A DNA stretch of 64,000 nt, taken from assembly GCF_024734385.1 (NCBI RefSeq), contig NZ_JANHAP010000008.1, positions 1-64,000 of the forward strand. Reading direction: 5' to 3'. The position numbers and the translations under genes were made by a program. The notes under the pieces are model-generated. The model made no database searches and was not told the origin of the DNA. It saw nothing but the letters and a program-made list of their open reading frames with translations. Positions 6,349-50,654 of the stretch are shown here, piece after piece (the stretch's first letter is position 1; every line of letters begins with the position of its first letter). Source of the DNA: Dasania sp. GY-MA-18. GTDB lineage: Bacteria; Pseudomonadota; Gammaproteobacteria; Pseudomonadales; Dasaniaceae.

Positions 6349-6372
6349 GTGTCTATGCCCCTTGTAGTTAGC

Positions 6373-6488
6373 TTGGCTCAAAAGATAGCTCAAATATAGA
6401 TCGTTGGCTCATAACTTGTCAATACGATTTAAGAGCCAGGCTAGGTGAGGTTATATTAGTTAGATCAAAACTCTCCACTTGTGAGCCA
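6373..6488. promoter_or_regulatory. Candidate recombination (res-like) sites of the serine recombinase
   Basis: The word TTGGCTCA appears at 6373-6380 and 6404-6411. TGGCTC at 6405-6410 forms an inverted repeat with GAGCCA at 6433-6438 across 22 bases, giving a 34-bp site of about resolvase-subsite size. An inverted TGAGCCA follows at 6482-6488. Location directly upstream of the recombinase gene is typical for res sites, but no site has been tested. Confidence 0.4.
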
Positions 6489-7180
6489 TGTCAGCAGGGT
6501 GTCTTTAGGTGGAGGCAGGCTTAAGGCCTTAAAAATAAACTAGGTTTGATTGGGTTGATAGGTAGGGCCGTTGTAAGCAATAGACGTTATTCGTATCAGT
6601 TGGGGTTGTTTTGGTGGTGTAACGGTATCAAAACGAACAGCTAGCCAATCAGTTGGAGTCAAAGTAGAAGCTTATCGCGACAGGGTGTAGCGTTTAGCAA
6701 CCATACATACAAAAGCGTCGTTTATTCAGCGATAAAGTTTCAACAAGGCGGCAGCATAGGGTAGAGAGCAAGCGTCACTTTGCGCTCACTTTTGAATGTT
6801 TTAAGGGCTCAAAAAACACAACAAAAGAGGGGGGGGGACGGGGGAATTTCCGCTCGGCTGTTATATTAAATGGGCGCACAGATTTTTTTGAATTTGCGTT
6901 CGGCTACAACGTACAGTCAGCATGCATAAGTGCTTGTTGTGTAAATATTAATCGCCATAAAGGGTGTCGGCGCATAGGCACCTGTATAAGTGCTGCTGTA
7001 CCGTGGTCAAAAACCATAATAACTGTTAGATTAAGCGTTCTAATAAGAATGATTACGCTCCATGGAGAGAGGCGCCACTGCATCTACGCGCTTATTACAA
7101 CTCTCTCTACGTTTCCCTTTTACACTACGAAACACGTATCACTTATAGTCCCGTAACACTTACCCTTGGATAAGCAGTAA
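6489..7180. other. About 690-bp non-coding region before the first type I R-M operon
   Basis: No ORF with a credible start is seen on either strand. There is a run of nine G at 6829-6837 followed by a second short G run. The stretch presumably carries the hsdM promoter, but I could not pick a convincing -35/-10 pair. It separates the recombinase/replication module from the restriction locus. Confidence 0.4.
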
Positions 7181-9541
7181 ATGACGTCAACAACAAAGAC
7201 ACCCACCAACCTAGCAGCCGACAGCTGGGCCATTGCCGATTTACTACGTGGCGATTTTAAACAATCTCAATATGGTCGCATCATCCTACCGTTTAACCTA
7301 TTACGTCGCTTAGAGTGCGTGCTAGAAGAGACCAAGCCTGCGGTACTTGCCAAGTATGAAGAAATACAAAAAATGAACCTGCCCGAAGAGGCGCAAGAGA
7401 AGTTATTATTGCGTGCTACTGGCGGTTTAAGCTTCTTTAATACCTCCAAGATGGACCTCGCTAAGCTGGGCGAAACGGGCATTAAGCAAAACCTAGTGAG
7501 CTACATTCAAGGTTTCTCAAAAGATGCCCGTGAAATATTTGAATACTTCAACTTCGCTGAGTTTATAGGCCAGCTCAACGATGCCGACTTGCTCTATAAA
7601 GTTGTGCAGCGCGTCAAAGTGATGGACTTGCACGCCGACAAAGTCTCCAATCACGACATGGGTCTAGTGTTTGAAGAGCTAATCCGTCGCTTTGCCGAAG
7701 GCTCTAATGAAACAGCGGGTGAGCATTTTACCCCCAGGGACATAGTACGCCTCACCACCTCATTGGTATTTATGGAAGATGACGACGCCCTTACCAAGCC
7801 TGGCATTATACGCACCATTTACGACCCCACGGCGGGTACTGGCGGGTTTCTCTCATCAGGTATGGAATACGTACACGAGTTAAACCCGCAAGCAGTGATG
7901 CGGGCTTTTGGCCAAGAGCTAAACCCAGAGAGCTACGCTATCTGTAAAGCCGATATGCTCATCAAGGGGCAAGAAGTTAACAATATTAAGCTGGGCAACA
8001 CGCTTTCTAACGATCAGCTCTACGCCGACAAGTTTGATTACATGCTATCCAACCCGCCTTTTGGTGTTGATTGGAAAAAAATCGAAGCATCTATCAAAGA
8101 CGAACACACGCTTAAAGGTTTTGATGGTCGCTTTGGCCCAGGCCTACCTCGTGTTTCCGATGGTTCCTTACTGTTTTTACTACACCTTATTAGTAAGTTG
8201 CGCGATGCATCAGATGGCGGTGGTCGTATCGGCATCATACTTAATGGCTCGCCGTTGTTTACCGGTGGTGCAGGTTCGGGCGAGTCAGAAATTCGTCGTT
8301 ACATTTTAGAGGCCGATTTATTAGAGGCTATAGTCGCGTTACCTACCGATATGTTTTACAACACTGGCATTGCCACCTATGTATGGGTGCTCAGTAACAA
8401 AAAAGCCGCAGAGCGTAAAGGCAAGGTGCAGTTGATTAACGGCGTAAACCTCTGCGGTAAAATGCGCAAATCCCTAGGCTCTAAGCGCAACGAAATGAGC
8501 GCCGATGATATTGCCACCATCACCCGTAGTTTTGGTGCTTTTGAAGAAGAGGATGCACGCGAGCTAGATAAACCGGCAGAGGTTAAAAGCAACCGTGGCC
8601 GTCAGTCTGCTAATCCTAATCCTAAAGCTGAAGCGCCAAAAACCTTTGCCAGTAAAATATTCGCCACCCATGAGTTTGGTTACCGCCGCATCACCATAGA
8701 GCGGCCTTTACGTGAGAGCTACCAATTTAGTGATGAACGCATAGCCGAGTTACGTTTTGCCAATAAACCGCTCAATGCACCCATGAAGTGGATATACGAA
8801 ACCTATGGGCAGGGCTGGAGCGACGATGAAGCCTGTGATAGCTATGGTGTGTTATCCGATAATGCCGTTGAAATAAGAGTGGCCATAAAGGCAAACTTTA
8901 GTGACATAAAAGAAGCCAAAATTAAAGAGCTGCTAGATCCCAAAACCTGGGCAGCACAAAAGCAAGTCATGCTTAAAGCCAAGCAGCTACAAGCCAGCTC
9001 GCCACATGGAATGGGCAGTGAGCAATGCGACGACATGAATGGCTATGACGCCGCGATTAAAAAAGCCTGCAAAAATCTTGGCATAAAACTAGAGGCCAAA
9101 GAGCTTAAGCAAATTACCAGCGCCGTTAGCTGGAAAAACCCAGAAGCGCAAAAGGTTATTAAGAAGGTACACAAAGCAAAAGCTAACCCGCTGTATGGTT
9201 TATTTGAAGTAGAGCTTAACGGCAAAAAACAAGTTGTAGAATACAAAGCCGATGGCGACCTACGTGATAATGAAAACGTAGCACTAGACCCATCACAACC
9301 GGTAGATGCATTAAACGAAGCTTACTTTATTAAAGAAGTGCAGCCCCATGTGCCGGATGCCTGGATAGATGCCAGCAAGAAGGATGATAAAGATCAGCAG
9401 GTGGGCATAGTCGGTTATGAGATTCCGTTTAATCGGCATTTTTATCAGTATCAGCCGCCTAGGGATTTGGTAGAGATAGATGCGGATTTGGACAAGGTTA
9501 GTGCCGAGATTATGACCCTTCTGCAAGAGGTACACTCCTGA
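7181..9541 (+). CDS. hsdM: Type I restriction-modification methyltransferase subunit HsdM (locus 1)
   Basis: The 786-residue protein carries the N6-adenine methyltransferase motifs: SAM-binding motif I DPTAGTGG at 215-222 and catalytic motif IV NPPF at 291-294. The [10 protein letters not shown] element typical of HsdM is at about 182-191. The N-terminal 140 residues match the HsdM helical domain. The C-terminal 300 residues extend well past the usual 500-residue HsdM; they contain Lys-rich helices and are not recognised. With HsdS it would modify host DNA to protect it from HsdR. It is first in the operon, 120-126 bases before hsdS. Confidence 0.95.
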
Positions 9542-9667
9542 TGGTCTTTTTACGCTATTGCTGCGTTGTGTCTGTACTCGCTCAGTCACGTATTAAATAT
9601 ACGCTCTTTCTCTGTGTGCAGGCACGTCTTGCACTAACGCAAAAATTCTCATTAGGAGTTTATGTGT

Positions 9668-10960
9668 ATGGGTAAGTATCAGGCGTATCCTGAATATAAA
9701 AATTCTGGTGTGGAGTGGCTGGAAGATCTACCGAATCACTGGGAAGTTAAAAGAACTAAAGCGATGTTTGGTCTGGCGCGTCAATTAGTTGGTAAAAATT
9801 CTAAGGATTATCAACTTTTATCGTTAACGCTTAAAGGAGTTATACCCAGAGATATTTCAGACGGCGGCGGTAAGATTCCAGCTGAGTTTGATACGTATCA
9901 AGTTGTTCGTCCAAAAAATCTAATCTTTTGTCTTTTTGATATTGATGAAACCCCGAGAACTATTGGTATTTCACCCTATGATGGAATGATTACCGGAGCA
10001 TACAATGTCTATAGTGCTCTAGAGCCTTGTGTGCCCGAGTACGCTTATTACTATTTCATGCATATAGATTCTTTTAAGGGCTTAAAGCCTTTTTATACTG
10101 GTTTAAGGAAAGTTGTTAGATCTGAAACTTTTTCCAATATTAAAATGCCAGTACCTAGAAAGGAAGAGCAAGAAATAATCGCCAACTTCCTCGATCACGA
10201 AACCGCCAAAATAGACACTTTGATCGAAAAACAACAACAATTAATTAAACTACTAAAAGAAAAGCGCCAAGCCGTTATTAGCCATGCCGTCACCAAAGGC
10301 CTCAACCCCAACGCCCCCATGCGCGACTCAGGTGTCGAGTGGTTAGGTGAAGTGCCGGAGCATTGGGCGGTGAGTAAGGTTAAGTTTGAGTATAAAAATT
10401 TAGATGGACGTAGAATACCGCTAAGTACGGAAGAACGGTCTTATATGCAAGGTGAGCATCCTTACTATGGGGCGTCTGGAGTTATTGACCACGTAGATGA
10501 TTATATTTTTGATGAAAATTTGGTGTTGGTAAGTGAAGATGGTGCAAATCTATTAATGCGCTCTTATGCAATTGCATTTCCAGCTTATGGTAAGTATTGG
10601 GTGAATAATCATGCACATATTTTAAAACCAAGAGATGGTAATACGGAATTTTGGGCTGAAGTAATTGAGGTGCGAGATTTAACTCCCTATATTTCCGGTT
10701 CTGCCCAGCCTAAATTTACATCTGAAGCTTTGAGCAATTTAGTGATTGCTGTACCTCCAGCAACAGGTGAAGTAAATAAAATATCTTCTTATATTAGAGA
10801 GCAAAAAGAAAAGTATTCTCTATTGATAGGTAAGGCAGAGGGCTCAATAAAGTTGATGCAAGAACGCCGCACAGCCCTAATCTCCGCAGCCGTCACCGGT
10901 AAAATCGACGTCAGAAATTGGCAAGCCCCTGAATCATCAAACAAGGAAGTAGCTGCATGA
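9668..10960 (+). CDS. hsdS: Type I restriction-modification specificity subunit HsdS (locus 1)
   Basis: About 430 residues with the two-fold layout of HsdS. Each target-recognition domain opens with a near-repeat (SGVEWLEDLPNHWEVKR near the N-terminus and SGVEWLGEVPEHWAVSK near residue 220) and is followed by a conserved helix (NFLDHETAKIDTLIEKQQQLIKLLKEKRQAVI). AGGAG lies three bases before the ATG at 9662 and nine before the in-frame ATG at 9668; the latter spacing is better and gives the usual MGKYxAYPEY start. It determines the recognition sequence for both HsdM and HsdR. The DNA between it and the next gene is unusually loose for this operon. Confidence 0.93.
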   Translation: MGKYQAYPEYKNSGVEWLEDLPNHWEVKRTKAMFGLARQLVGKNSKDYQLLSLTLKGVIPRDISDGGGKIPAEFDTYQVVRPKNLIFCLFDIDETPRTIGISPYDGMITGAYNVYSALEPCVPEYAYYYFMHIDSFKGLKPFYTGLRKVVRSETFSNIKMPVPRKEEQEIIANFLDHETAKIDTLIEKQQQLIKLLKEKRQAVISHAVTKGLNPNAPMRDSGVEWLGEVPEHWAVSKVKFEYKNLDGRRIPLSTEERSYMQGEHPYYGASGVIDHVDDYIFDENLVLVSEDGANLLMRSYAIAFPAYGKYWVNNHAHILKPRDGNTEFWAEVIEVRDLTPYISGSAQPKFTSEALSNLVIAVPPATGEVNKISSYIREQKEKYSLLIGKAEGSIKLMQERRTALISAAVTGKIDVRNWQAPESSNKEVAA

Positions 10961-11066
10961 ACTTGTTGGCAGGTGGCGGCAAGGCCAACGATTTTACCTT
11001 TCTAAACGCTAGGGCTACTTTGAGGCTTGAGCTATCATCTTCCTTGACGGCTTTAGGAGGCCTTTC

Positions 11067-12080
11067 ATGCCTAGTGATTTAACCAGTTCATCTATAGATA
11101 GACAAAATGTACTCAATAATCGTTATGCCCTTGAGAAGATAGAGGAGCATCTTGCTTTGGGTGGGCTTGAGTTCGAGGGCGATAGGTTATTTACCAAGCA
11201 GCAGCTCACCGAGCTGTTTGATGTCAGCGATAGCACTATCGAGAAATACTTATCCACGCATGGCGACGAGTTAAAGGCTAATGGCTATCAGCTCCTTAAG
11301 GGGAAGAAACTTAGAGATTTCAAGGGTTTATCGTATGGTCCCGTAACAGATTACGGTACCAAAACATCGGTTCTTGGGGTGTTCAATTTTCGAGCAGTTC
11401 TCAATATAGCCATGATCTTGACGGAAAGTGAGCGGGCTAAAGCGGTTCGGTCACGGATACTGGATATTGTTATCGACGTGGTGGCTGAGCGGGCAGGGGG
11501 GCACACCAAGTTTATCAATCAGCGGGATGCGGATTACTTGCCATCGGCCTACCGTGAATACAGTTATCGGAAGGTGTTTACTGACGCTCTTGATCAGTAC
11601 TTGGATATGGGCAAATTTAAGTATGGCATATATACCAATAAGGTTTATCAATTGGTGTTTAAAGAGAATGCTAAAGAATACAAGCAAATTCTAAAGTTAG
11701 CGAAAGGCGATAATGTTCGCGATACCTTTTATTCCGAAGTGTTAAAGGCTATCGCCAGTATTGAAAATGGTTTGTCTCAGGATATGGCAACCAAGGCAGG
11801 TGAGCTAGGTCGAAAATTGAGTCCCTCAGAATTGGATGCTTTGTTGGAGGGGCTGGAAGAAAACCCCTACTTAAAACCGGTTATTGATGATGCCCGCACA
11901 AAGATGGCAAGCCGGGATATGAGTTTCCGTGATGCTTTGCATATAAAACTGGAGTCATACTTACAAACAGTACCTGAAGGTGATGTTGATAAGTTCCTGG
12001 GGGATGCTAGTCGCTCTTTGGAAGAGCAGTTGTCAGATCCAGAGACACTTGAGGTCTTTAAGCGCTTAAAGGATCGATAG
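11067..12080 (+). CDS. HTH-containing protein, probable antitoxin partner of the Doc-like toxin
   Basis: The 337-residue protein has an N-terminal helix-turn-helix-like stretch (LFTKQQLTELFDVSDSTIEKYL, about 33-54) and a second conserved-looking segment with VFNFRAVLNIAMIL (about 105-120). The rest is helical and acidic at the C-terminus. AGGAGG five bases before the ATG is a strong ribosome binding site. The Doc/Fic gene starts four bases after its stop, the standard arrangement for antitoxin then toxin. I infer the antitoxin or regulator role from this pairing; it is much longer than Phd and is not Phd-like. The cassette sits between hsdS and hsdR in the same orientation. Confidence 0.6.
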   Translation: MPSDLTSSSIDRQNVLNNRYALEKIEEHLALGGLEFEGDRLFTKQQLTELFDVSDSTIEKYLSTHGDELKANGYQLLKGKKLRDFKGLSYGPVTDYGTKTSVLGVFNFRAVLNIAMILTESERAKAVRSRILDIVIDVVAERAGGHTKFINQRDADYLPSAYREYSYRKVFTDALDQYLDMGKFKYGIYTNKVYQLVFKENAKEYKQILKLAKGDNVRDTFYSEVLKAIASIENGLSQDMATKAGELGRKLSPSELDALLEGLEENPYLKPVIDDARTKMASRDMSFRDALHIKLESYLQTVPEGDVDKFLGDASRSLEEQLSDPETLEVFKRLKDR

Positions 12081-12083
12081 ATT

Positions 12084-12542
12084 ATGCCAAGGAAGTATAT
12101 TTATTTTGATGCTGTTTATGCAGAGAAAGAGCACGACTGGATTATTGAGCATTCTGGTGGCAGAAGCGGTACCCAAAACCTGGGATTGATTGCAGGGTCG
12201 CTTGGCCATATTCAAAATGACGATTACTACCCGTCAATGGAAAGTAAGCTAACGCATTTGGTCTATAGCATTAATAAAAATCATGCCTTTGTCGACGGGA
12301 ATAAGCGCTCAAGCATTGCCTTAGGGTCGTATTTTTTAGAGCTAAATGGTTATGAGTATTGCGTGCAATATTTTGTGCAGGAAATGGAAAATATTGTGGT
12401 TTGGCTTGCTGAGGGAATTATTGATAAAGAGTTACTTTGTGAACTCGTATCATCAATTCTCTATGAAGATGATTTCTCGGAAGAGCTTAAATTGAAACTG
12501 TTGAATGCAGCATTGCAATCAAAGGCTCATCAGGTAATGTAG
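12084..12542 (+). CDS. doc: Death-on-curing (Doc/Fic-fold) toxin
   Basis: The 152-residue protein contains HAFVDGNKRSS at about residues 68-78. This is the Doc version of the Fic motif (HxFxDGNKR), whose His and Lys/Arg catalyse nucleotide-phosphate transfer; in phage P1, Doc phosphorylates EF-Tu. Length is close to typical Doc (about 125-150). The N-terminal YIYFDAVYAEKEHDWII is consistent with the family. Translation follows the HTH protein after only three bases, so the two are coupled. The expected role is growth arrest when the partner or the R-M system is lost. Confidence 0.85.
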   Translation: MPRKYIYFDAVYAEKEHDWIIEHSGGRSGTQNLGLIAGSLGHIQNDDYYPSMESKLTHLVYSINKNHAFVDGNKRSSIALGSYFLELNGYEYCVQYFVQEMENIVVWLAEGIIDKELLCELVSSILYEDDFSEELKLKLLNAALQSKAHQVM

Positions 12543-12609
12543 TTCTGATTACTGTATCGCACTTTGCTTAACATTAGCGAAAAATAAAAATAGATAGGGA
12601 TTTTATGGT

Positions 12610-15600
12610 ATGGGTAAAGCTAACGAGCTTACATTCCAAAACGACATGATTCGGCAGCTAGTTGCCAACGGCTGGCTGCTGGGTAAACCAGAAGGCTACA
12701 ATCGTGAACTGGCCTTGTATGAAGAGGATGTGTTGGGCTTTGTTAAAGAGACTCAAGACGAGCAATGGCAAAAGTTTTGTGCGCTTTACCCTAACGATAC
12801 GGAAGCTAAGTTTTTACAGCGTGTAGCAACGCAGCTCAATAAAGCCGACCCCAATGCCGCCAATAAAGAAATGCGCACCTTTGGTACCTTAGGTGTATTG
12901 CGCCATGAGCTACGTGACCGTGGCACGCGCTTTAGTTTATGCCAGTTTAAACCCGAGCATGATTTAAACCCTGAGACATTGGAGCGTTACGGTAAGAACC
13001 GTTTACGAGTAGTGCCGGAGTTGGTCTATAGTCCCTGGTGTAAATCTGAAGAGACGACGGAAGGCGAGCAAGCAGCCACTGGTGCAAAGGCCAAGGCCTG
13101 GCGTATCGACTTAGTGATGTTTGTTAATGGCTTACCCGTGGCTACCTTAGAGTTAAAGAGTGAGTTTAAACAAGCAGTACAAAATGCCATTAAACAGTAC
13201 AAAGCCACACGTTTAGCTATAGACCCCGCAACCAAGAAGCCAGAGCCTTTACTCACCTTTAAACGTGGCGCATTAGTGCATTTTGCGGTGAGCCAATACG
13301 AAGTGTATATGGCTACACGCCTGGAAGGCGCTGACACCTTCTTTTTACCGTTTAATAAAGGCACTAATGCCGGTGGTGCGGGTAATGATACCCCAGAGAA
13401 TAAAAACCAATACGCCACGGATTACTTGTGGAATGAGGTGCTACTGCCCGATAACCTGCTGAATATACTTGCCCGCTTTGTGCATTTACAAATAGAAGAG
13501 AAAGAGGATTGGGAAGGGCGTAAATACAAAAAAGAAACGCTAATCTTCCCTCGTTACCACCAGTGGGATGTGGTAAGTAAGTTGGTAGATGCGGCCCGCA
13601 CCGAAGGCCCTGGTCATAAATATTTAATACAGCATAGTGCAGGCTCAGGTAAATCCAATTCTATAGCCTGGTCGGCCCATCAGCTATCGGCCATACATAC
13701 AGCCAAGGGTAATAAACTATTCGATTCCGTCATCGTAGTAACCGATAGAACGGTGTTGGACGATCAGTTACAAGAAACCATCTCACAGTTTACAGCGGTA
13801 GAAGGGGTAGTGGGGCGTATTAACCGCAACGAAGGCGACGGTTCTAAATCAGAAAAGCTGGCAGCGGCTTTGGAAAGCTCACAGCCTATTATTATCGTTA
13901 CCATTCAAACTTTTCCCTATGTGTTAAAGGCGATAGAAAACAGCGTCAACCTGAAGCAGCGTAACTACGTGGTAATTGCCGATGAGGCGCACAGCTCGCA
14001 AACGGGTAGCACTGCACGGCAGCTAAAAGAAGTGTTGATGATCGATGGGCAGGGTGATGATGAAGAGCTCAGCACCGACGATATTTTAGATGCCGCAGTG
14101 GCGTCACGCAAAGCATCGAAGAATTTAAGTTATTTAGCGTTCACAGCTACCCCTAAAACAAAAACCTTAGAGTTGTTTGGTCGCTTGCCCAATCCCAATG
14201 AGCAGTCATCCAAAACTAACAAGCCCGTAGCCTACCATGTGTACAGCATGCGCCAGGCTATAGAGGAAGGCTTTATATTAGATGTGCTGAAAAACTACAC
14301 CAACTATAAAGTGGCCTATAACCTAGCCATGAAGATAGCGGGTAGCGACCAAGAGGTAGAGAGTAAGAAGGCTAAGGTAAAACTCAATCAATGGGTACGC
14401 CTACACGATTACAATATCAGCCAAAAGGTTCAGGTGATTGTTGAACATTTTAAAGATAACGTAATGGGTTTATTAGGTGGCCAAGCTAAGGCCATGATAG
14501 TAACTAGCTCTCGCAAAGAGGCTGTACGTTATAAAATGTCTTTTGATAAGTATATAGTCGACAAGGGCTATCACAAGATGCATGCCATGGTGGCCTTTTC
14601 GGGTGAGGTAGAGTTTAACGATAAAGACCCTAACTCCTCAGGCGTTATAGGCGAGAAGTTTACAGAGGGGAGTATGAACCCCAATCTCAAAGGCCGTGAT
14701 ATGCGTAAGGCTTTTGACAGTGATGATTACCAGGTAATGATAGTAGCGAATAAGTTTCAGACAGGGTTTGACCAACCTAAGCTTTGTGCCATGTATGTCG
14801 ATAAAAAGCTGGGTGGTGTGGAGTGTGTACAAACCTTGTCACGTTTAAACCGTGTGTACCCCAGTAAAGCGGAGACGGGTACCTTCGTACTGGACTTCTT
14901 TAACGAGCCTGAAGATATACTTGAAGCTTTTCAACCGTATTATCAAACGGCTGAGCTTGCTGATGTCTCAAACCCTGATGTGATCTTTGACCTATTTGAT
15001 AAGCTGCGTGCTGCCGGTATTTTTACCTGGTCTGAAGTTGAGCAGTTCTGTGAATTCTTCTTTGTTAAAAGTAAAAGCAATGCCGCTATTGCCAATATCT
15101 GCAAGCCAGCAATAGAGCGTTGGAGTAATCGCTACAAATCGGCTGTTGCGGCTTTTAAACAATCAAAAGATATGTTTAACCGCACTAAGAAAACCGGTGA
15201 CGCTGTTTTAATAGCTAATGCAGAGAACAGCCTTAAAGAGTGTAAGCAAGAGAAAGACGCCTTAGAAATATTTAAGAAAGATCTAGGCTCATTCGTTCGC
15301 TTCTATGAGTTTATGTCACAGATCGTAGATTATGATGATAAAAATTTAGAGAAACTTAGCCTCTACGCTCGAAACCTACGCCCTATGTTACGCGAAACGG
15401 TTGTGGACGAAGACGAGATAGATTTAAGTAACGTGACTCTCAGCCATTACCGCGTGTCTAAAATCAAACAGCAAGATATAGAGTTAAAGGAAGATGCTGA
15501 GGGCTATGATTTAGAGCCTGGTGATAGTTTAGGCTCTGCCTCAGCTAAAGATAAAAAAGAGGAATACCTTTCGCAAATTATCGTGCGTCTTAATGAATTG

Positions 15601-35875: not shown

Positions 35876-38254
35876 CTAAACCTTAGTTTCGCCAGCGCTT
35901 ATTGAACGCGTAATACTGGCAAAATATTGCAGCTGTTTAACCACGCGGTCATTAAAGGTACCCTTGGGGAAATTGCCGCGCTGGTTAAGTTTGCCCGGAT
36001 CTTTTTTTATTAATAGTGCTAGGGCTTCGTTAACACTGCTAACCGTGTATATGGCAAATTGGCCTTGAGCTACGGCATCCACTACGCGCTGCTCCAGCAT
36101 TAAATTATCTTTATTGCTGGCCGGTAAAATAACCCCTTGGCTGCCGGTAAGGCCGCGCGCGGCGCAAATATCAAAAAAACATTCAATTTTTTCGTTAACG
36201 CCACCCACGGCTTGTATTTCACCGCGTTGGTTGGTGGAGCCGGTAATGGCTAAGTCTTGCCGTAGTGGTTGGTTCACCAGCGCCGAAAGCAGGGCGCAGA
36301 GTTCTGCCAGAGAGGCGCTGTCGCCATCGATATAGCCATAGGATTGTTCCATGGCTATATGCGCTGAAATCGCTAAGGGGAATTTTTGCGCGTAAAAACT
36401 GCTTAAATAGCCGGTTAAAATCATCACGCCTTTAGAGTGTACAGATTGGCCTAGTTCGGCTTCACGCTCTATATCGATAACGCCACGGTGGCCGGGGTTA
36501 ACACTGGCGGTAATACGAGTGGGGCAGCCAAAAACCATTTCCCCCACTTGTAATAGTGACAGGCCGTTAATTTGCCCAGCGGTGCTGCCTTCACTGCTAA
36601 TCACCACGGTGCCATCTAAAATTTGTTTAAGCAATTGATCGCGCAAGCGGGCATTGCGATAGGTACGTGCGGCTATCGCCTGCTGTATATGCTGGCCGTC
36701 TATGCTCTCTTGGCCGCCGCTTATGCGCTCAAAGTCAGCCTCTAGGGCAACTTCTAATATGGCATCTATGCGTGCACTTAATCGTTGCTGGTGTTCTGCT
36801 AGGCGATGGGCATGTTCTGCTAAGCGTGCTACTGCTGCTACGGTAAGCTCGGCTATATTGGCTTCACTGCTGCGGGCATGTAGTAACTCGGCAAACTGTG
36901 TAAGTGATTGCGGGGTGCTGTCTATATAGTCATCAAAATCTACCAGTACACGAAATAGATTGTTAAAGTCGCGGTCCAGTTGGTCTAACTCATAGTAAAT
37001 ATTTCTTGAGCCTATCAATATAACTTTAACTTGTAGCGGCACGGGTTCGGGATGTAGTGGTGTTACGCCGCTTAGTTGTATGTCGCCGGGCGCTGGTTCT
37101 AAATGTATGCAGCCATCGCGCAGCATGCGTTTAAGCGCTGGCCAGGTGCCATCACCCAGTAGGATTTTTTCTATATCTAAAATTAAATAGCCGCCGTTGG
37201 CTTTGTGCAAGGCGCCAGGGGTAATTTGCTGATAGGCGCCACCGCTGTCTTCGCTGCCGTAACTGACTCTACCAAATAAATTTTGATAGCTGGGGTTTGA
37301 TTCCAGCACTATGGGGGCACCATCCTTAATTGCACTGGTGAGCAGGTTTGGGGTGTAGTAGCTCTCTAATAGTTTGCGTTGCTTGGATGAGGTTATCGCC
37401 TCTGTTTTGCTGAGGTCACTAAAGTTTTCTTCAATCACTCTAGGCAGGTGTTTGGCAATTTGTGCCAAAAATAAACTGATGCTGGTGTTGCCTTGGTAGC
37501 TTAGACGCAGGGGCTGCAGTATAGGTTTTAAGGCCTGCTCTATGGTGGCTTCTCTAAGTTGCCGCTGCTGGTCGTTAAAGTCACGTTGCCATTGTGGAAG
37601 TTCCAGTAGCGCCTCATTAAGCAACTCTTCCAGCTGATTCACACGCTGGCGAAAATCAGCGAGCTGTTGTTGGCTAAGGCTGGCAAATTGCGCTTCATCA
37701 ATGACTTTGCCGTCTATGATGGGGGTAAAAGTCACGCTGGTTTCTTCGCTAAACATAGCGATGTGCTGTTGGCTGGCAATATTTTGTACGTCAGCAAGGG
37801 CGTCGTCATAGATTTGGTCAAAGCGGTTTTGTATAGCTGACTTTTTTTGTTGGTAGCTAGGGTTGTCGAAGGTGGCGGGGAAGCTGTCTATCAATGCATC
37901 TATTAATTTATCGATATCCCTGTGTAACTGGGCACCTTGCCCGGGAGGCATTTTAATAATTCTAGGAGTGTAGGGATTGTCAAAATTATTAACGTATAGC
38001 CAGTCAGGTGGTGTTTGCTGCTGGCCTACTAAGGGCTGTAAGTAATCTAGAGCATAGCGAAAGCGGCTGGCACCGGCTTCACCGGCAATATAAATATTGT
38101 AACCGGGTTGGTTAATGCTAAGGCCAAAGTCTAATGCTTTGGTAACACGAGGTTGGCCTAGTATGCCGCTATAATGGCTGAGCTCGCGGGTAGATTGAAA
38201 ACTAAAATCCTGCTCTAAAACTTGGCTGCGTAATTGCTCGGCGGATAATTTCAC
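35876..38254 (-). CDS. Lon-family (S16) ATP-dependent protease-like protein
   Basis: The 792-residue protein starts with GTG at 38254; AGGTG lies five bases upstream. Residues about 30-100 hold the AAA N-terminal segment with GEAGASR where a Walker A GxxGxGK would be expected (Lys replaced by Arg). Further Walker B-like (GGYLILDIEKILL) and sensor regions follow. The proteolytic domain has DGDSAS with the catalytic Ser and NEKIECFFD with the catalytic Lys downstream (about 665 and 710). It matches the AAA_32/Lon-like group of gammaproteobacteria rather than canonical LonA. Confidence 0.88.
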   Translation of the reverse strand: MKLSAEQLRSQVLEQDFSFQSTRELSHYSGILGQPRVTKALDFGLSINQPGYNIYIAGEAGASRFRYALDYLQPLVGQQQTPPDWLYVNNFDNPYTPRIIKMPPGQGAQLHRDIDKLIDALIDSFPATFDNPSYQQKKSAIQNRFDQIYDDALADVQNIASQQHIAMFSEETSVTFTPIIDGKVIDEAQFASLSQQQLADFRQRVNQLEELLNEALLELPQWQRDFNDQQRQLREATIEQALKPILQPLRLSYQGNTSISLFLAQIAKHLPRVIEENFSDLSKTEAITSSKQRKLLESYYTPNLLTSAIKDGAPIVLESNPSYQNLFGRVSYGSEDSGGAYQQITPGALHKANGGYLILDIEKILLGDGTWPALKRMLRDGCIHLEPAPGDIQLSGVTPLHPEPVPLQVKVILIGSRNIYYELDQLDRDFNNLFRVLVDFDDYIDSTPQSLTQFAELLHARSSEANIAELTVAAVARLAEHAHRLAEHQQRLSARIDAILEVALEADFERISGGQESIDGQHIQQAIAARTYRNARLRDQLLKQILDGTVVISSEGSTAGQINGLSLLQVGEMVFGCPTRITASVNPGHRGVIDIEREAELGQSVHSKGVMILTGYLSSFYAQKFPLAISAHIAMEQSYGYIDGDSASLAELCALLSALVNQPLRQDLAITGSTNQRGEIQAVGGVNEKIECFFDICAARGLTGSQGVILPASNKDNLMLEQRVVDAVAQGQFAIYTVSSVNEALALLIKKDPGKLNQRGNFPKGTFNDRVVKQLQYFASITRSISAGETKV

Positions 38255-41978: not shown

Positions 41979-42454
41979 TCTGTATTGCTTGCGCTACAGT
42001 ACTGATATGCGCCTATATATGTAACAGCGCTATTAAAAAGTACATTTTTGGTCTATATGGTGCAGCGTGAGTTAGAACAAAAATAAATCAATATCTAGAA
42101 AAATAGCCTATATGCGCCATGCCCCGCCTACCATGTTGGGCGGGGTTCTCTATAACGGTGTTGCTCTTTTTTACTACGTTTTTTACCTACCCATTCCCGC
42201 CTTATTTATGACTAACTGATTTTTAATATTTTATAAGCCTGTGCTATTAAAAAATTATTTTAGTTATAGCATAAGTTAAATGTATTTTATCCATAATCCG
42301 CTCATCGCTTATGCTTTTAAGATGCTTCAAGTGCCTGTATTGAGTAGTGGCTAGGTATTTTTATTAATACACACTTTAGGGTAATTAATTAAGCTAATGT
42401 TCACCGTTAGATTGTTAAGACAATTAGGCATTGCTTAACATTTAGGTGAATTAC
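41979..42454. other. 475-bp intergenic region with hairpin and shared operator
   Basis: CCCCGCC (42122-42128) and GGCGGGG (42139-42145) form a stem after the MltC-like gene, a possible weak terminator (T-poor tail). The shared operator-like motif lies at 42368-42386 and is listed separately. No gene is visible. Confidence 0.5.
42368..42386 (+). promoter_or_regulatory. Cluster motif, site A (upstream of the TonB receptor)
   Basis: TACACACTTTAGGGTAATT. It matches sites B and C in 14 or more of 19 positions and has the imperfect 12-bp palindrome ACACTTTAGGGT. It lies about 70 bases before the ATG of the TonB receptor. Confidence 0.55.
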
Positions 42455-44860
42455 ATGACGAAAAATAATAATGGTAAGAAATTAGCATTGGCAGCGGCAG
42501 TGAGCATAGGGGCTCAGGCAGCTATGATGCCCATGGCCAATGCTTTAGCGTTGGAAGAGTTAATTGTTTCGGCGCGTAAACAGGCTGAGACAGCACAGGA
42601 TGTACCTATAGCAGTAACCGCGCTATCGGGTAAGATGATGACCGACTTAGGGGTTAATGAAGCAGGCGATATCGCCTTATACACGCCTAACTTTACCTGG
42701 CATACCGAATTTGGCCGAGCCTCGCCACAACCTTATATGCGCGGCATAGGTACTAATAATTTTGCCCCTATTAACAATGGCCCCATAGCCATATACCAAG
42801 ATGGTGTTTTTATAGGCCCCAATGTGGCTCAGGGTTTTGCCACTTTTGATGTAGAGCGGGTAGAGGTATTAAAAGGCCCGCAGGGTACCTTGTATGGCCG
42901 TAACTCTACCGGTGGTTTAATTAACTTTATTTCGGTGAAGCCCGAGATAGGGCAGGATACATCGGGCTATATCAATGTAGAACTGGGCAGCCACGACACC
43001 AAAAATGTTGAAGGTGCGGTAGGTTTTAGCCTGGGCGATCAATTTGCCGCGCGCTTATCGGTGTTGCGTGCCACCAGTGATGGCCCCTTTGATAATATTA
43101 ATCCGGCAAGCAACGGTAAGGCGGGTCAAATTGACGACTTGGCGGCCCGCGCGCAGTTATTATTTGATAATAACGAAGGCCTAACCATATTAACCAATTA
43201 TCACTATGGTAAAGCTGAACCAGATACCGCCCCCTTTAAACAAGTGGGGCTAGTCGACCCCAACGGTGTAGGCCCTGCCCACCCGGATTATGCTTACTCG
43301 CAATGTGCAAACCCCGGCATAGGATCTGGCTGTACCGATGCCTATCACGGTTTTGTTGAAGATAACGATATTTATAAAACCCAAAAAGCCGATGACTTTG
43401 AGCATGTAGATACCGAAGGTGTATTGGTGCGGGTGGATTATGAAATTAATTACGATATGTCGTTTTATTCAGCAAGCTCTTACGATGAGGCCTCGTTGCG
43501 CCGTTATGATGATACCGATGACGGTCCCTTTGGCGTAGAGAACGATTTTTATGCCGATGATTTTCGCTGGTATAGCCAAGAGCTGGGTATAGCGAATCAA
43601 AGCGACGTTTCTATGTGGCATGTGGGTACTTATTATTACAATGAAAAAGTAAAGGGTGCCCAAATGTGGACTAACCCTTTTTGGGGTACGGGCGAAGGTA
43701 ATGAGCATGAAGTAGAAACCACCAGCTATGCCTTATTTGGCCAGTACGACTACGACTTTAATGAAAGCTGGGGCGCTACTATAGGCCTGCGTTGGAGTTA
43801 CGAGGAAAAAGAGGTACATAAGTACAATGGCTTTATGCCCTTGATTGCCAATATGACTAACAATGAAGGCGATGGCCCGCTGTTTTCACTGGCCGATGCT
43901 CGTGCTGCCGCCGGGGGTATCGATGAATCCCACGGCGTAGTTATAGGCACCCCTACTGCTAAAGACTGGGATGAAATCACCGGCCGTATTTCTGTGGATT
44001 ACAACACCGAAGATGGGCACTTAATTTATGCCTCTATCGCCCGAGGCTTTAAAGGCGGTGATGTTAACGGCGCTGCTTTCTTGGATGAGTACCTACCTTC
44101 GGATGGCGCAGGTGGCAGTTTAATTTGCCCCGGTGCAGAAGCGCCGGGCACATCGCGCTGTCAAAGCTCGGTGGATGCTTTTAATGCCAAGCTAGAGCCC
44201 GTAGACCCAGAGTTGCTGGATGCAATAGAGGTGGGTTTTAAAGGCGACTTTATGGATGGCGCGCTGCGGGTAAACGGTGCGGTATTTTATTACGAGTATA
44301 CCGATCAGCAAAACACTAACCTAATCCCCGTGGCGGGCACTTCAGCTAATACCACTACGCTAACCAATGCCGGTGAAACCAAAATGCCGGGCATAGAGAT
44401 AGAGGTAATCGCCACACCTACAGACGCATGGTATTTGCAATTTAATGCCGGTTGGGTAGATGCGGAGTACGATGAGTTTGTAACCGCTTTTGGTGATAAC
44501 TCGGGCAATCAAATTTCGCTAACCCCCAAAACGCAGTTCTCTGGTTTAGTGCGCTATGACTTTGAACTGGACAGCGGTGCGATTATTGCGCTGCAAACGG
44601 ATGTGTCTTGGCAGAGCAAAACTTATTTTCAGCCCACCAATGAGGATCTGCTACTAGAGGACTCTTATGCGCTATGGGGTGCTCGCGTGTCTTATGCTTC
44701 GGCAGATGACCGCTGGACTACCGCGCTATTTGCTAAAAACTTAACGGATAAAGAGTATTACGGCTCAGGTTTCCAGTTGGAGTTTTTAGGTTCCAAGCAG
44801 CTTAAGCCCGGCGCGCCGCGTTATATAGGTTTAAGTGTGGATTATAAATTTGGTGATTAA
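42455..44860 (+). CDS. TonB-dependent outer-membrane receptor
   Basis: The roughly 801-residue protein (ATG at 42455, AGGTG seven bases before) has a signal peptide (LALAAAVSIGAQA, cleaved near residue 32), a TonB box-like EELIVSARK and the plug segment AVTALSGKMM...GRNSTGGLINFISVKPE. A beta barrel follows, ending in YIGLSVDYKFGD. It imports a substrate across the outer membrane using TonB energy. The substrate is unknown; the amidohydrolase and MFS nearby suggest an organic compound rather than iron only. Confidence 0.92.
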   Translation: MTKNNNGKKLALAAAVSIGAQAAMMPMANALALEELIVSARKQAETAQDVPIAVTALSGKMMTDLGVNEAGDIALYTPNFTWHTEFGRASPQPYMRGIGTNNFAPINNGPIAIYQDGVFIGPNVAQGFATFDVERVEVLKGPQGTLYGRNSTGGLINFISVKPEIGQDTSGYINVELGSHDTKNVEGAVGFSLGDQFAARLSVLRATSDGPFDNINPASNGKAGQIDDLAARAQLLFDNNEGLTILTNYHYGKAEPDTAPFKQVGLVDPNGVGPAHPDYAYSQCANPGIGSGCTDAYHGFVEDNDIYKTQKADDFEHVDTEGVLVRVDYEINYDMSFYSASSYDEASLRRYDDTDDGPFGVENDFYADDFRWYSQELGIANQSDVSMWHVGTYYYNEKVKGAQMWTNPFWGTGEGNEHEVETTSYALFGQYDYDFNESWGATIGLRWSYEEKEVHKYNGFMPLIANMTNNEGDGPLFSLADARAAAGGIDESHGVVIGTPTAKDWDEITGRISVDYNTEDGHLIYASIARGFKGGDVNGAAFLDEYLPSDGAGGSLICPGAEAPGTSRCQSSVDAFNAKLEPVDPELLDAIEVGFKGDFMDGALRVNGAVFYYEYTDQQNTNLIPVAGTSANTTTLTNAGETKMPGIEIEVIATPTDAWYLQFNAGWVDAEYDEFVTAFGDNSGNQISLTPKTQFSGLVRYDFELDSGAIIALQTDVSWQSKTYFQPTNEDLLLEDSYALWGARVSYASADDRWTTALFAKNLTDKEYYGSGFQLEFLGSKQLKPGAPRYIGLSVDYKFGD

Positions 44861-44886
44861 TCGCTGTTAGTCTTACAGGCTTAAGT

Positions 44887-44928
44887 AACCGGTTTAAGTG
44901 CCAGGCATTGGTCTTAAACCGGTTTTTT
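44887..44928 (+). terminator. Intrinsic terminator after the TonB receptor
   Basis: AACCGGTTTAAG at 44887-44898 pairs perfectly with CTTAAACCGGTT at 44913-44924, followed by T4. It ends the receptor transcript and insulates the downstream amidohydrolase gene. Confidence 0.9.
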
Positions 44929-44961
44929 GCCTGTAGGGTTTTGATACTTTAACTTGGCGAA

Positions 44962-44980
44962 TACACTCTTAAGGGTAATT
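44962..44980 (+). promoter_or_regulatory. Cluster motif, site B (upstream of the amidohydrolase)
   Basis: TACACTCTTAAGGGTAATT. The 12-bp palindrome ACTCTTAAGGGT is nearly perfect. It lies about 130 bases before the amidohydrolase start, just after the receptor terminator. Confidence 0.55.
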
Positions 44981-45110
44981 CATTAGCCCTAGCGGCTTGG
45001 TTACTCTGAGTCTCGAAGTGGCAGGCTTTATTGAAGACTAAAGCCTGAATGATAATTGGCTATAACGCGGTGATTTTATTGCGGTTTTTATAGCGACAAT
45101 AAGTGGGGTG

Positions 45111-46217
45111 ATGATGAAAACCGGTTTTGTTTTTGATGAAAGCTACTTTTGGTATGACAGCCTCAACCAGGCATTTCCGCCTTTCCTTATAGAACCCGGC
45201 GGCAACCCCGATAGGCCTGATATTAAGCGCCGCTTTTATAATTTACTCAGTCACTCAGGGCTGTTAAAAAAGCTTAGCCATATAGAGCCTAGGCCTGCTA
45301 CTGAGGCAGAAATTTTATCGGTGCATAGCAAGGCCTATTATGACAGCTTGGCTAAACAAAATAGCCTGCCTGCAGGGGTAGGGGGCGAGGGTGCTGTGTT
45401 TGCTGAGGGCGGCTTCGATATTGCTAAACTAGCCGCAGGCGGTGCCATTACGGCAGTAGAAAAAGTGCTGTCGGGCGAGGTGAGCAATGCCTATGCTTTA
45501 GTGCGGCCGCCGGGGCATCACGCCGAAACCGATACCGGTGCAGGTTTTTGTATTTTAAATAATGTCGCCTTGGCGGCTAAACAAGCATTGCAGTTGGGTG
45601 GCTTTGAGCGCGTCGCTATTATCGATTGGGATGTGCATCATGGTAATGGTGCCCAGCAAATTTTTTGGCAAGACCCTTCAGTGCTAACCATTTCGGTACA
45701 TCAGCACTACAGTTTTTTAGAGGTAGATACCGGTACAGCTGAGTATAAAGGTGAAGGCGCGGGTGAGGGTTATAATATTAATGTGCCGCTACCACCGGGC
45801 TCAGGGGATGTTACCTATGCCACGGTTTTTGATGAAGTGGTCATACCCGCCTTAGAGGCTTATCAACCGCAAATGATTATTGTAGCCAGTGGTTTAGATG
45901 CGGGCTGCTATGATCCCTTGGGCCGTATGGCGCTTACCCCCAAGGGGTTTAGGCATATGGCCAGCACGGTGCGGCAGGCGGCAGAGAGGCTTTGTGAAGG
46001 GCGGTTGGTGTTATGCCAAGAGGGCGGTTATGACTTGGCCTCTACTCCGTATATGGGCTTGGCTGTTTTGGAGGGCTTGTCGGCTATCACCCTGGATTTA
46101 GTGAATCCATTTCAGGTCTTTGGTGACTCTTTGGGTTATACCCAAGAGGTATTACCGCATCAGGCTAAGGTGATAGCGACCGCGATTGAGCAGGTCAGAG
46201 CCCTGGCAAAAGCCTAG
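45111..46217 (+). CDS. Histone deacetylase-family amidohydrolase
   Basis: The roughly 368-residue protein has the HDAC-like zinc hydrolase motifs: VRPPGHHAE (tandem His near 133-139), IIDWDVHHGNG (Asp/His zinc ligands near 170-176), SGLDAGCYDP (Asp ligand) and CQEGGYDL (transition-state Tyr). In bacteria such enzymes hydrolyse acetylated amines (acetylpolyamines or related amides). Possible starts at 45108 (GTG), 45111 and 45114. The gene sits downstream of the TonB receptor and has a shared operator site, so it probably acts on the imported compound. Confidence 0.88.
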   Translation: MMKTGFVFDESYFWYDSLNQAFPPFLIEPGGNPDRPDIKRRFYNLLSHSGLLKKLSHIEPRPATEAEILSVHSKAYYDSLAKQNSLPAGVGGEGAVFAEGGFDIAKLAAGGAITAVEKVLSGEVSNAYALVRPPGHHAETDTGAGFCILNNVALAAKQALQLGGFERVAIIDWDVHHGNGAQQIFWQDPSVLTISVHQHYSFLEVDTGTAEYKGEGAGEGYNINVPLPPGSGDVTYATVFDEVVIPALEAYQPQMIIVASGLDAGCYDPLGRMALTPKGFRHMASTVRQAAERLCEGRLVLCQEGGYDLASTPYMGLAVLEGLSAITLDLVNPFQVFGDSLGYTQEVLPHQAKVIATAIEQVRALAKA

Positions 46218-46227
46218 GGCTGTTGCC

Positions 46228-47076
46228 TTAGGGTTCGCTTACGCTAGCCAGGTAAAGCGCTAAGGGGTCTTTACCTGGGTCTACCTCTATAAAGGGTAGC
46301 GCTGAAAATACCAGCGAAAACAGCTCGGCCTGTTTAGAGATTTTAAGTTTAAGATAGGCATTGCGCCTGTGCATTTTTACGGTGTCCAAGGAAATATTTA
46401 AATCTTTGCAGATAGACTTGGATGAGTGGCCGTGCAAAATCAGCTGAATAATATCTCGCTCTCTGGCGGTTAGTAGCGAGGTTCCAAATGCAACTAAGCC
46501 TGATTTTAACTGGCTATGCAGCTGGCTGCGCTCTTGATTTGCTTGTGTTTGCACCAGCTTAAAATGTTTTTGAACGGCATTAAGCACTATGGGTTCTACG
46601 GCTTTCAGTGTGGCTATTTCTGCACTGGTGAAAGGGGTGTTGTTTTCGACTCTAGCTATGGATAGGCTGACTCTTAAGTCATCGCCTATATGAGTAAGAT
46701 AACAAGCCTCGTCGCGGCACTGCGTGCGCGAGTAATAAAAGTGGTAGTACTTAGAAACCAAGAAGCCTTCGGGCACTAGCTCTAGCAGGTGATATAACCC
46801 GGGGCCATCGCCGTCAAAACATTTTTTATAAAAAGGGTCTAATAGATAAGCGCCAGCCAACCAGCCGGTAGTATTTATCTCATGTAGACGCTTGGGGTAG
46901 TTATCAAACAGAATATACGGCTGCTGCTCTTTAGGGCAGACAAATAACAGAATGGATAAGTCACTGACTATGCTTAGCAGTGAGTCTGATAAGGCCTGGG
47001 GGAAATCATCAGTACCTATGGCGCTGATAATATCGGCTATCTTGTGGTTCCAATTAGGGCTATTGCTAGAATTCAT
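46228..47076 (-). CDS. LuxR-type transcriptional regulator
   Basis: The 282-residue protein has a C-terminal LuxR HTH (TARERDIIQLILHGHSSKSICKDLNISLDTVKMHRRNAYLKLKI, about 200-245). The N-terminal 190 residues are not recognised as a known ligand domain. It converges with the amidohydrolase gene (11 bases) and is divergent from the MFS gene; site C lies between the latter two. It is the natural candidate to bind the shared motif. Confidence 0.85.
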   Translation of the reverse strand: MNSSNSPNWNHKIADIISAIGTDDFPQALSDSLLSIVSDLSILLFVCPKEQQPYILFDNYPKRLHEINTTGWLAGAYLLDPFYKKCFDGDGPGLYHLLELVPEGFLVSKYYHFYYSRTQCRDEACYLTHIGDDLRVSLSIARVENNTPFTSAEIATLKAVEPIVLNAVQKHFKLVQTQANQERSQLHSQLKSGLVAFGTSLLTARERDIIQLILHGHSSKSICKDLNISLDTVKMHRRNAYLKLKISKQAELFSLVFSALPFIEVDPGKDPLALYLASVSEP

Positions 47077-47228
47077 TTTTGCCTGCCAATTTTATTATTT
47101 TTTGATGATAGCATGATGTTAACTATTGCCGTTAAATTCTATTAAAAATTAATAAGCACAGGCGGATAATTAAGCGATGACTTATATAAATGCTTGCTTT
47201 TAAGGGCGCAGCTTAATTTTTAAGCCTA

Positions 47229-47247
47229 TACACCCTTATGGGCAATA
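47229..47247 (+). promoter_or_regulatory. Cluster motif, site C (between LuxR and MFS genes)
   Basis: TACACCCTTATGGGCAATA, with the palindrome ACCCTTATGGGC. A second half-like TTAAGGGTAAG follows at 47249. It lies between the divergent LuxR-type and MFS genes and could control both. Confidence 0.5.
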
Positions 47248-47342
47248 TTAAGGGTAAGCAAAGCGCTATATCGTAATTAGCAAGCAAATGCAGTAGATTA
47301 GCTGCCACTATAATAATGAAGCAAACGAGAGGTGTAGGGATT

Positions 47343-48512
47343 GTGAAAAAGTTTATAGAGTCTTACCTAAGCAAAGAGGTGTTAGGGCCTTTTGCTGCTA
47401 TGTACGGCGTAGGTTTCGCCCCCTTGTTAATTTTACCCTTTTTGTTTTCGGCCATTGTTAAGCATTTTTCTATATCTGAATCGGAAGCGGGTTTGTTGAT
47501 TACTGTAGAGCTGGCGGCCATGTGTTTAGGCTCGTTAGTGCTGGCTCCGGTTATAGATAAGTTTTCTAAGCGATTATTGGCTATATGGGCTGTAGTGATC
47601 GTCGCCATAGGTAACCTTGCAGTTGTTTTTACTGACTCATTAAGTGCCGGTTATGTTTGTTTAGCTGTGGCAGGCTTTGGTTACGGTGTGGCTTTGGCGG
47701 CGGGTAATGCCTCTGTTGCGGCCATGAAAGGTAATGCCGATGAAGTGTTTAATAAGGTGGTTTTTTTAGGCACGGTGTTAATGGTGCTGCTGCTAAATAT
47801 ATTCCCCAGGCTTATCGTTGCGTGGTCTTTGCCGGGCGCTTTGCTGGGCTTGGTAGCTTTACACTTGTTGATGCTACCTGCGATAGCCAGATTATCACCG
47901 GCCAAGAGTGAGGCTAAGCATGACCACTCAAATAAAGGTCAGTTTAAAGTGCTATTGCAACCGTTGGCCTTAGTTATTATCGTGATGATGTTTTGCTATT
48001 TTGTTAGGGATACCATGCTCTGGGTTTTTGCCGAAAGTATAGGCAGTAATCGCCTGGGCATGGCCGTTACCGATATAGGTTTTTTATTTAGCATACACGG
48101 GGCTATGTCTTTATTAGGGCCTTTGCTGATGTTGTGGCTAATGCATAAATTTGGCAAGGCGCTGTTATTAATTGCTGGCATTATAGTTAGCGGTGCGATT
48201 TCAATTGTTGTGAGCCAAACCCACAGTGTTTTCGTGTACTCGTTTTTAGTTATTATTTGGTCCACGGCTCACTTTTTTACTTACAGTTGTATTATGTGTT
48301 TTGCGGCTGCCGCTGATGAAAAAGGGCGTGTGGCTGCTGCTGCGGGTGCCGCGGTCATGGGGGGCACAGCAGTGGCCCCAGCTATTGCAGGCTATGCTAT
48401 GGATAGCGGCGGGTTACCACAATTTACCTTGGCTGTAATTATTGCGGTGCTACTGACCATTGCATTTACTATAGCGACTACGCTGTTATTTCCTAAGAAT
48501 ATTCAAGCGTAG
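47343..48512 (+). CDS. Major facilitator superfamily transporter of the amidohydrolase cluster
   Basis: The roughly 389-residue protein from GTG at 47343 (upstream ATG at 47316 would add nine residues; the G-rich AGGTGTAGG sits before the GTG). Twelve hydrophobic segments are visible, with the first at about 15-45 (PFAAMYGVGFAPLLILPFLFSAI). It likely moves the product or substrate of the neighbouring amidohydrolase pathway. Similar length and style to the MFS at 38431 suggests paralogy. Confidence 0.85.
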   Translation: MKKFIESYLSKEVLGPFAAMYGVGFAPLLILPFLFSAIVKHFSISESEAGLLITVELAAMCLGSLVLAPVIDKFSKRLLAIWAVVIVAIGNLAVVFTDSLSAGYVCLAVAGFGYGVALAAGNASVAAMKGNADEVFNKVVFLGTVLMVLLLNIFPRLIVAWSLPGALLGLVALHLLMLPAIARLSPAKSEAKHDHSNKGQFKVLLQPLALVIIVMMFCYFVRDTMLWVFAESIGSNRLGMAVTDIGFLFSIHGAMSLLGPLLMLWLMHKFGKALLLIAGIIVSGAISIVVSQTHSVFVYSFLVIIWSTAHFFTYSCIMCFAAAADEKGRVAAAAGAAVMGGTAVAPAIAGYAMDSGGLPQFTLAVIIAVLLTIAFTIATTLLFPKNIQA

Positions 48513-48566: not shown

Positions 48567-48590
48567 GCCCCTCCTAAGAGGGGCTTTTTT
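48567..48590 (+). terminator. Intrinsic terminator after the MFS gene
   Basis: GCCCCTC, loop CTAA, GAGGGGC form a perfect 7-bp stem followed by T6. It lies between the convergent MFS and fghA genes and could serve the MFS transcript. Confidence 0.9.
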
Positions 48591-48616: not shown

Positions 48617-49456
48617 TTAGTGGCTCAGATGCTTAGCATGAAAACGCAGGTGGTCTTCAATAAAGCTGGCAATAAAATAGTAGCTGTGGTCATAGCCTGT
48701 ATGCAGGTCTAACTCTAATGGGTAATCATTAGTTTTAGCGGCAGCTGCTAAGGTTTCTGGCTTTAGCTGTTCTTGCAAAAAGTCATCGGATTCACCTTGA
48801 TCAACTTTAGCGGGCACATGTTGTGTTGCTAGCCGCATAAGCTCGCTGGCATCATATTGTGCCCAGCTATCTTTATCACTACCTAAATAAGCGGTGAAAG
48901 CTTTTTGACCCCAGGGGCAATTAATCGGATTGCTAATGGGGCTGAAGGCCGATACCGAGCGGTAGCGATCGGCATTGCGCAAGGCAATCACTAAGGCACC
49001 GTGCCCGCCCATGCTGTGGCCTGAAATAGCACGCTGATCAGAGACGGGGAAGTTGGCTTCAATCAACTCTGGCAGCTCGTTAACAATGTAATCATACATT
49101 TGGTAGTGGCTGCTCCAGGGAGCCTGGGTAGCGTTAACGTAAAAGCCTGCGCCTTGGCCTAGGTCGTAAGCCTCGTCATTGGCTACGTCTTCGCCTCTGG
49201 GGCTAGTGTCGGGGGCAACTATGGCTATGCCCAGTGCTGCGGCTATGCGGTGGGCACCGGCTTTTTGCATCATGTTTTCATCGCTGCAAGTTAAGCCCGA
49301 AAGCCAATACAGTACCGGGACTTTTTCGCCGCTAGCTGCTTGCGGGGGCAGGTAGATGGCAAAACGCATGGCGCAGTTTAGGCTGGTGGACTGATGGTTG
49401 TATTGCTTGTGCCAACCACCAAAACTTTTATTGACGGCAATATTTTCTATGCTCAT
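48617..49456 (-). CDS. fghA: S-formylglutathione hydrolase
   Basis: The 279-residue protein has the esterase-D fold motifs: GHSMGGHGAL (nucleophile Ser near 147), a catalytic Asp region and GYDHSYYFIASFIEDH (catalytic His near 261). It starts SIENIAVNKSFGGWHKQYNH, a typical FghA opening. It hydrolyses S-formylglutathione to formate and glutathione, the second step of formaldehyde oxidation. AAGGA lies about eight bases before the ATG. It is 49 bases downstream of adhC, in an operon with it. Confidence 0.93.
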   Translation of the reverse strand: MSIENIAVNKSFGGWHKQYNHQSTSLNCAMRFAIYLPPQAASGEKVPVLYWLSGLTCSDENMMQKAGAHRIAAALGIAIVAPDTSPRGEDVANDEAYDLGQGAGFYVNATQAPWSSHYQMYDYIVNELPELIEANFPVSDQRAISGHSMGGHGALVIALRNADRYRSVSAFSPISNPINCPWGQKAFTAYLGSDKDSWAQYDASELMRLATQHVPAKVDQGESDDFLQEQLKPETLAAAAKTNDYPLELDLHTGYDHSYYFIASFIEDHLRFHAKHLSH

Positions 49457-49505
49457 AAATTATCCTTAAGGGCTGCTTGCTAAGCGGCAGCCCTGGTGAT
49501 CACTT

Positions 49506-50654
<1,149 letters not shown>

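Follow-up and report, generated by a model that had tools for sequence, protein, structure and literature searches.

Three promoter regions of a transport and deacylase gene cluster in Dasania sp. GY-MA-18 share a motif that occurs in exact form nowhere else in the genome and recurs in an orthologous cluster of the same genus. We think it likely that the cluster is a local ligand-responsive regulon, run by the LuxR regulator encoded within it, through which an N-acyl amine, probably an N-acetyl one, is taken up and deacylated. The features, by position in the window (the whole 64,000-nt stretch of DNA that was analysed), are as follows.

42367-42385, + strand: operator copy 1, ATACACACTTTAGGGTAAT (exact match; 69 bp upstream of the receptor start codon)
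42455-44860, + strand: TonB-dependent receptor (TBDR; plug and barrel; PF07715, 5.6e-17; PF00593, 1.6e-34)
44887-44929, + strand: probable terminator, inverted repeat AACCGGTTTAAG...CTTAAACCGGTT (12-bp repeat, read by eye) followed by a T-run
44961-44979, + strand: operator copy 2, ATACACTCTTAAGGGTAAT (exact match; precedes HDAH)
45114-46217, + strand: HDAH, predicted class II zinc deacylase/amidohydrolase (PF00850, 2.2e-86)
46228-47076, - strand: predicted VqsR-type LuxR solo regulator (GerE domain, 3.5e-14; VqsR-like N-terminal half)
47200-47209, + strand: extra half-site-like element, TTAAGGGCGC (by sequence reading)
47228-47246, + strand: operator copy 3, ATACACCCTTATGGGCAAT (exact match; in the LuxR/MFS divergent region)
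47248-47257, + strand: extra half-site-like element, TTAAGGGTAA (by sequence reading)
47316-48512, + strand: MFS transporter (PF07690, 2.9e-25)
48567-48590, + strand: terminator 3' of the MFS gene (terminator scan)

The repeat at 44887-44929 is missing from the terminator scan because its loop exceeds the length that the scan allows; as a probable terminator it would split the TBDR and HDAH transcription units, which is consistent with one operator per unit. The flanks of the cluster are apparently unrelated to it, with an MltC-like transglycosylase upstream and fghA plus a zinc-type alcohol dehydrogenase downstream. The latter two (48617-50636) are likely a formaldehyde-oxidation pair, and a LonB-like AAA protease (LonB/LonC helical and Lon C-terminal domains) is encoded at 35876-38254.

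The original prediction placed a shared near-palindromic operator in the three promoter regions, and TACACNCTTWWGGGYAAT was indeed found exact at 42368-42385, 44962-44979, and 47229-47246, all on the + strand. Every other site in the window has at least two mismatches, and the match count was equalled by 0/100 shuffles. Since the consensus had been fitted to the sites post hoc, the three intergenic regions were also aligned blind. The best 19-bp block fell on the predicted sites with 15/19 columns identical, beginning one base before the predicted motif (ATACACNCTTWWGGGYAAT); among 1,000 dinucleotide shuffles, the maximum was 13 identical columns (reached 9 times). The three-site motif is thus confirmed as real. 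Its near-palindromic character was borne out for the 12-bp core (ACNCTTWWGGGY) and not for the flanks, TAC and AAT, which are conserved yet asymmetric. Two further half-site-like GGGY elements accompany copy 3 in the LuxR/MFS divergent region. A promoter scan near the operator sites gave matches no more numerous than in shuffles.

A genome scan had been proposed as a check for enrichment near the cluster. Perfect matches to the 15-bp core (ACNCTTWWGGGYAAT) numbered three in the 3.8-Mb genome, exactly the three cluster sites, and no spread of the motif across unrelated promoters was seen; 9 of the 11 one-mismatch sites examined in the genome fall within open reading frames (ORFs). Across 37 related genomes, only one additional site within one mismatch was detected, and the reversed operator pattern gave a background of several matches; a one-mismatch site in genome G002 lies within an ORF and has no evident relation. 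When LuxR family loci of other genomes were compared, the best match (L166, position 1028, - strand, one mismatch) stood in an MFS/agmatinase divergent promoter, where copies TACACTCTAAAGGGTAAT and TAACCCTTTAGGGGGTATT lie between the two genes and a family LuxR is encoded nearby.

An orthologous cluster is present in a genome of the same genus (G001, locus L093), where the LuxR gene is divergent from a TBDR-HDAH-MFS gene line that has a single promoter region in front of it and ends in an acetate-CoA ligase gene (AcsA). Protein identities to the window are 43% (LuxR), 46% (HDAH), and 31% (TBDR), and the two LuxR proteins are sisters with support 100/98 in a 124-row tree. A single operator copy, TACACAGTTTTTGGTAAT (two mismatches), lies between the LuxR and TBDR genes, and 0/3,000 shuffles of its region matched equally well. 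Three units with three sites in the window, against one gene line with one site in G001, is what is expected of an operator; together, genome-wide exclusivity and this conservation uphold the predicted shared operator of a small local regulon. That the three matches arose by chance or from a repeat is very improbable: the consensus was fitted after the sites were seen, but the blind three-way test gave 0/1,000 shuffles as good, G001 holds a conserved copy, and sequence beyond the shared block differs among the three sites (by eye). Adjoining the G001 cluster (L093:14439-18233) are two GbcA-like Rieske oxygenase genes and an MFS gene.

The cluster LuxR is, on sequence and a structure model, predicted to be a VqsR-type LuxR solo. 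In a profile comparison (2.6e-29), the first half of the protein, at the N-terminus, resembles the ligand-binding domain in 5xhx, and its predicted model (pLDDT 87.8) matches the same structure in fold (Foldseek E 2.0e-08, TMt 0.83, 22% identity; best matches 5xhx_B and 5xhx_A); 5XHX is VqsR according to the PDB title and PMC9144697. The C-terminal GerE helix-turn-helix (PF00196) is present in the window LuxR and in 17/17 family members. No match to the autoinducer-binding domain PF03472 was obtained in the window LuxR at E up to 1, nor is it among the 25 families listed for 17 LuxR relatives, although the fold resembles that of AHL receptors. An AHL quorum-sensing LuxR was rejected on the missing PF03472 match and on the annotated cluster neighbours, none of which belongs to a luxI-type synthase family.

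The resemblance to VqsR of Pseudomonas aeruginosa (PA2591) covers the N-terminal domain, by profile and fold, and the GerE helix-turn-helix. vqsR is numbered beside PA2592, a spermidine/putrescine-binding protein gene, and VqsR is described as a global regulator of quorum-sensing genes (PMC5767178), whereas the window LuxR appears local to an uptake and hydrolase cluster. By description, it is also like PjeR and PolR (subgroup E, fluorescent pseudomonads), LuxR solos without AHL-type pocket residues that adjoin polyamine transport genes (PMC8546723); their neighbours are polyamine transporters, while those of the window LuxR are a TBDR and HDAH. Putrescine, spermidine, and spermine did not induce the neighbours of PjeR and PolR (PMC8546723).

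Relatives were collected with a smaller alignment (A2), the first (A1) being too diverse; a single-sequence LuxR scan of the named genomes found nothing. Besides the cluster LuxR, this genome encodes 12 full-length paralogues (13 members in total; 29-39% identity over most of their length), and G001 a similar number. In this genome, 8/13 members lie at most 4.5 kb from a TonB plug domain (12% expected randomly; p 4e-5). Neighbour clusters at 102 family loci included class-III aminotransferase (33), TBDR (29), aldehyde dehydrogenase (15), agmatinase (12), and GGputSyn-like (11) genes, and neighbours across the family include amine/polyamine catabolism genes (omega-aminotransferase, aldehyde dehydrogenase, agmatinase, GGputSyn-like, GadC-like). 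Many paralogue loci of this genome (G000, L031-L041) and of G001 (L097-L106) adjoin TonB receptors, aminotransferases, and NhaC-type antiporters, and a nitrilase-like or agmatine-deiminase-like gene is among the other neighbours.

Such a set of paralogues, similar enough that cross-recognition is possible, would allow the three sites to be bound by another, unlinked regulator (one of the 12 or a global regulator), with the local LuxR as target or bystander. We judge this quite unlikely, as the genome has no exact site elsewhere, unlike what a global regulator would show, and G001 retains the operator in the divergent region next to its sister LuxR. Control by the local LuxR is preferred.

In single-domain PDB comparisons, the window deacylase matches HDAH best (5g17/1zz0), followed by dimethoate hydrolase (9gkw) and propanil hydrolase (9gku), all near whole-length, and catalytic residues H135, H136, D173, H175, D262, and Y306 (HH, DxH, D, and Y motifs) are invariant in alignment A4. 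From this, it is predicted to be an HdaH-type class II deacylase of cluster 1b, like FB188 HDAH, DmhA (dimethoate hydrolase), and PrpH (propanil hydrolase), and differs from them in standing behind a dedicated operator common to a receptor and a transporter. An acetylpolyamine amidohydrolase (ApaH) was rejected, as HDAH structures match first and ApaH (9gkz) only at 8.9e-37. Acetylated polyamines, first named among the compounds to test, could still be the substrate, but the enzyme resembles HdaH-type enzymes, not ApaH. A true ApaH (ApaH structure match, 2.5e-115) is encoded in a paralogous LuxR-TBDR cluster of this genome (L038). The arrangement LuxR-TBDR-NhaC-type antiporter-ApaH, with ApaH last, is conserved between L038:8726-14600 and L104:3607-9494 of G001.

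For HdaH-type enzymes, the known substrates are as different as acetyl-lysine, dimethoate, and propanil (PMC11532494), so the family fixes the reaction class only and not the substrate. An N-acetyl compound is favoured mainly by the AcsA gene: a deacylase and an acetate-CoA ligase in one G001 gene line point to such a substrate, the ligase being expected there if acetate is released. No acetate-CoA ligase gene adjoins the window cluster.

The HDAH family includes protein lysine deacetylases (PMC11532494), and lysines of proteins might be the real target of the enzyme, which could, for instance, keep acetyl-CoA synthetase deacetylated (AcuC/AcsA-like) while the receptor and transporter serve another substrate. 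Cluster 1b itself contains protein deacetylases, BsAcuC deacetylates AcsA (PMC11532494), and in G001 the acetate-CoA ligase gene comes after HDAH-MFS. We nevertheless regard this as unlikely, since HDAH is apparently co-regulated with the receptor and transporter, its relatives elsewhere are repeatedly found next to TBDRs and amidase-like genes (names by eye), and DmhA and PrpH of cluster 1b act on small molecules (PMC11532494). An N-acyl amine remains the preferred substrate.

Ten further genomes of the order have HDAH homologues (L225-L234), often near TBDRs; none of these loci lies beside a full VqsR-type LuxR or has an operator motif within two mismatches. Amidase- or amidohydrolase-looking genes recur beside them with the TonB receptors (names read by eye). 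Around a second HDAH in G001 (L094) and in this genome (L095), the nearby regulators are MalT-like and AraC-like instead. The L094 region (5950-15565) is a second TBDR-HDAH-MFS cluster, with a 918-amino-acid MalT-like regulator and a sulfatase-like gene.

Import through the TonB receptor, hydrolysis of an amide or acetyl group, and movement by the MFS transporter had been predicted in that order. The order calls for revision: HDAH has no evident signal sequence and is thus probably cytoplasmic, which makes import by the MFS transporter before hydrolysis more likely than movement of the product afterwards. In the model that we prefer, the LuxR would bind the ATACACNCTTWWGGGYAAT operators before TBDR, before HDAH, and in the MFS/LuxR divergent region. 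Its VqsR-like N-terminal domain would sense a small molecule, most likely either the substrate or the amine released from it, and the LuxR would then switch the three transcription units jointly, presumably by activation, a common mode in this regulator class, rather than by repression. The amine, N-acylated and most likely N-acetylated, would cross the outer membrane through the TBDR, the MFS transporter, probably an importer, would move it into the cytoplasm, and HDAH would strip the acyl group to give the free amine and acetate.

NarL-type operators are inverted TACYYMT heptamers. The window sites share with them inverted ACCC...GGGT half-sites and a GerE-type helix-turn-helix, and differ in having 4 bp, not 6, between ACNC and GGGY and in their asymmetric flanks. 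A NarL-type 7-2-7 operator (ACCC-N6-GGGT spacing) was rejected, the half-site cores being 4 bp apart.

Conserved blocks of this genome and G001 beside several paralogues hold ACCC...GGGT palindromes, and more occur at other loci, Pseudomonas and Alteromonadaceae ones among them. Upstream of LuxR genes (set including this genome and G001), shuffles suggested enrichment of ACCC-Nk-GGGT at k=4 and 5; LuxR-upstream regions of the named loci compared with control upstream regions showed no clear enrichment. All intergenic DNA at most 4 kb from a LuxR gene was then compared with DNA farther away (this genome and G001 excluded), giving near versus far counts of 64 versus 32 for TACCC-N6-GGGTA (p 4.8e-5) and, for ACCC...GGGT, 41 versus 22 with N4 and 55 versus 34 with N5 (p about 2e-3), figures obtained with many patterns tried and with similar ratios for some composition-matched palindromes. 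The N4 form was not enriched in this genome and G001 alone (p 0.57). An unsupervised motif search returned mostly AT-rich patterns, and an ACCC...GGGT seed gave an ATACCCC-ATGGGGTAT-like motif of lower likelihood. With one of the two tests negative, a family-wide ACCC-N4-6-GGGT operator is a modest lead, not a result. Tentatively, the lineage-expanded VqsR-type LuxR proteins (13 in this genome and about as many in G001) might form a bank of one-component amine/amide sensors, each switching its own TonB receptor or catabolic unit via its own version of a shared ACCC-N4-6-GGGT operator, although we lean slightly against so broad a scheme. If it is true, orphan VqsR-type regulators would have an amine or amide as ligand, not a quorum signal.

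No description of this cluster turned up in a search of open-access texts. Local one-component regulons that combine uptake with catabolism are of a known kind; what is less ordinary is that VqsR-type LuxR proteins have multiplied next to TonB receptors and amine catabolism genes. To our knowledge, no ligand is established for VqsR-type LuxR solos, and their link here to amine uptake and deacylation yields a hypothesis, open to testing, on what orphan VqsR-type regulators bind as ligand. The predicted operator, regulator, and target set are defined and directly testable, and they suggest that acetylated amines have a TonB-dependent route into marine gammaproteobacteria.
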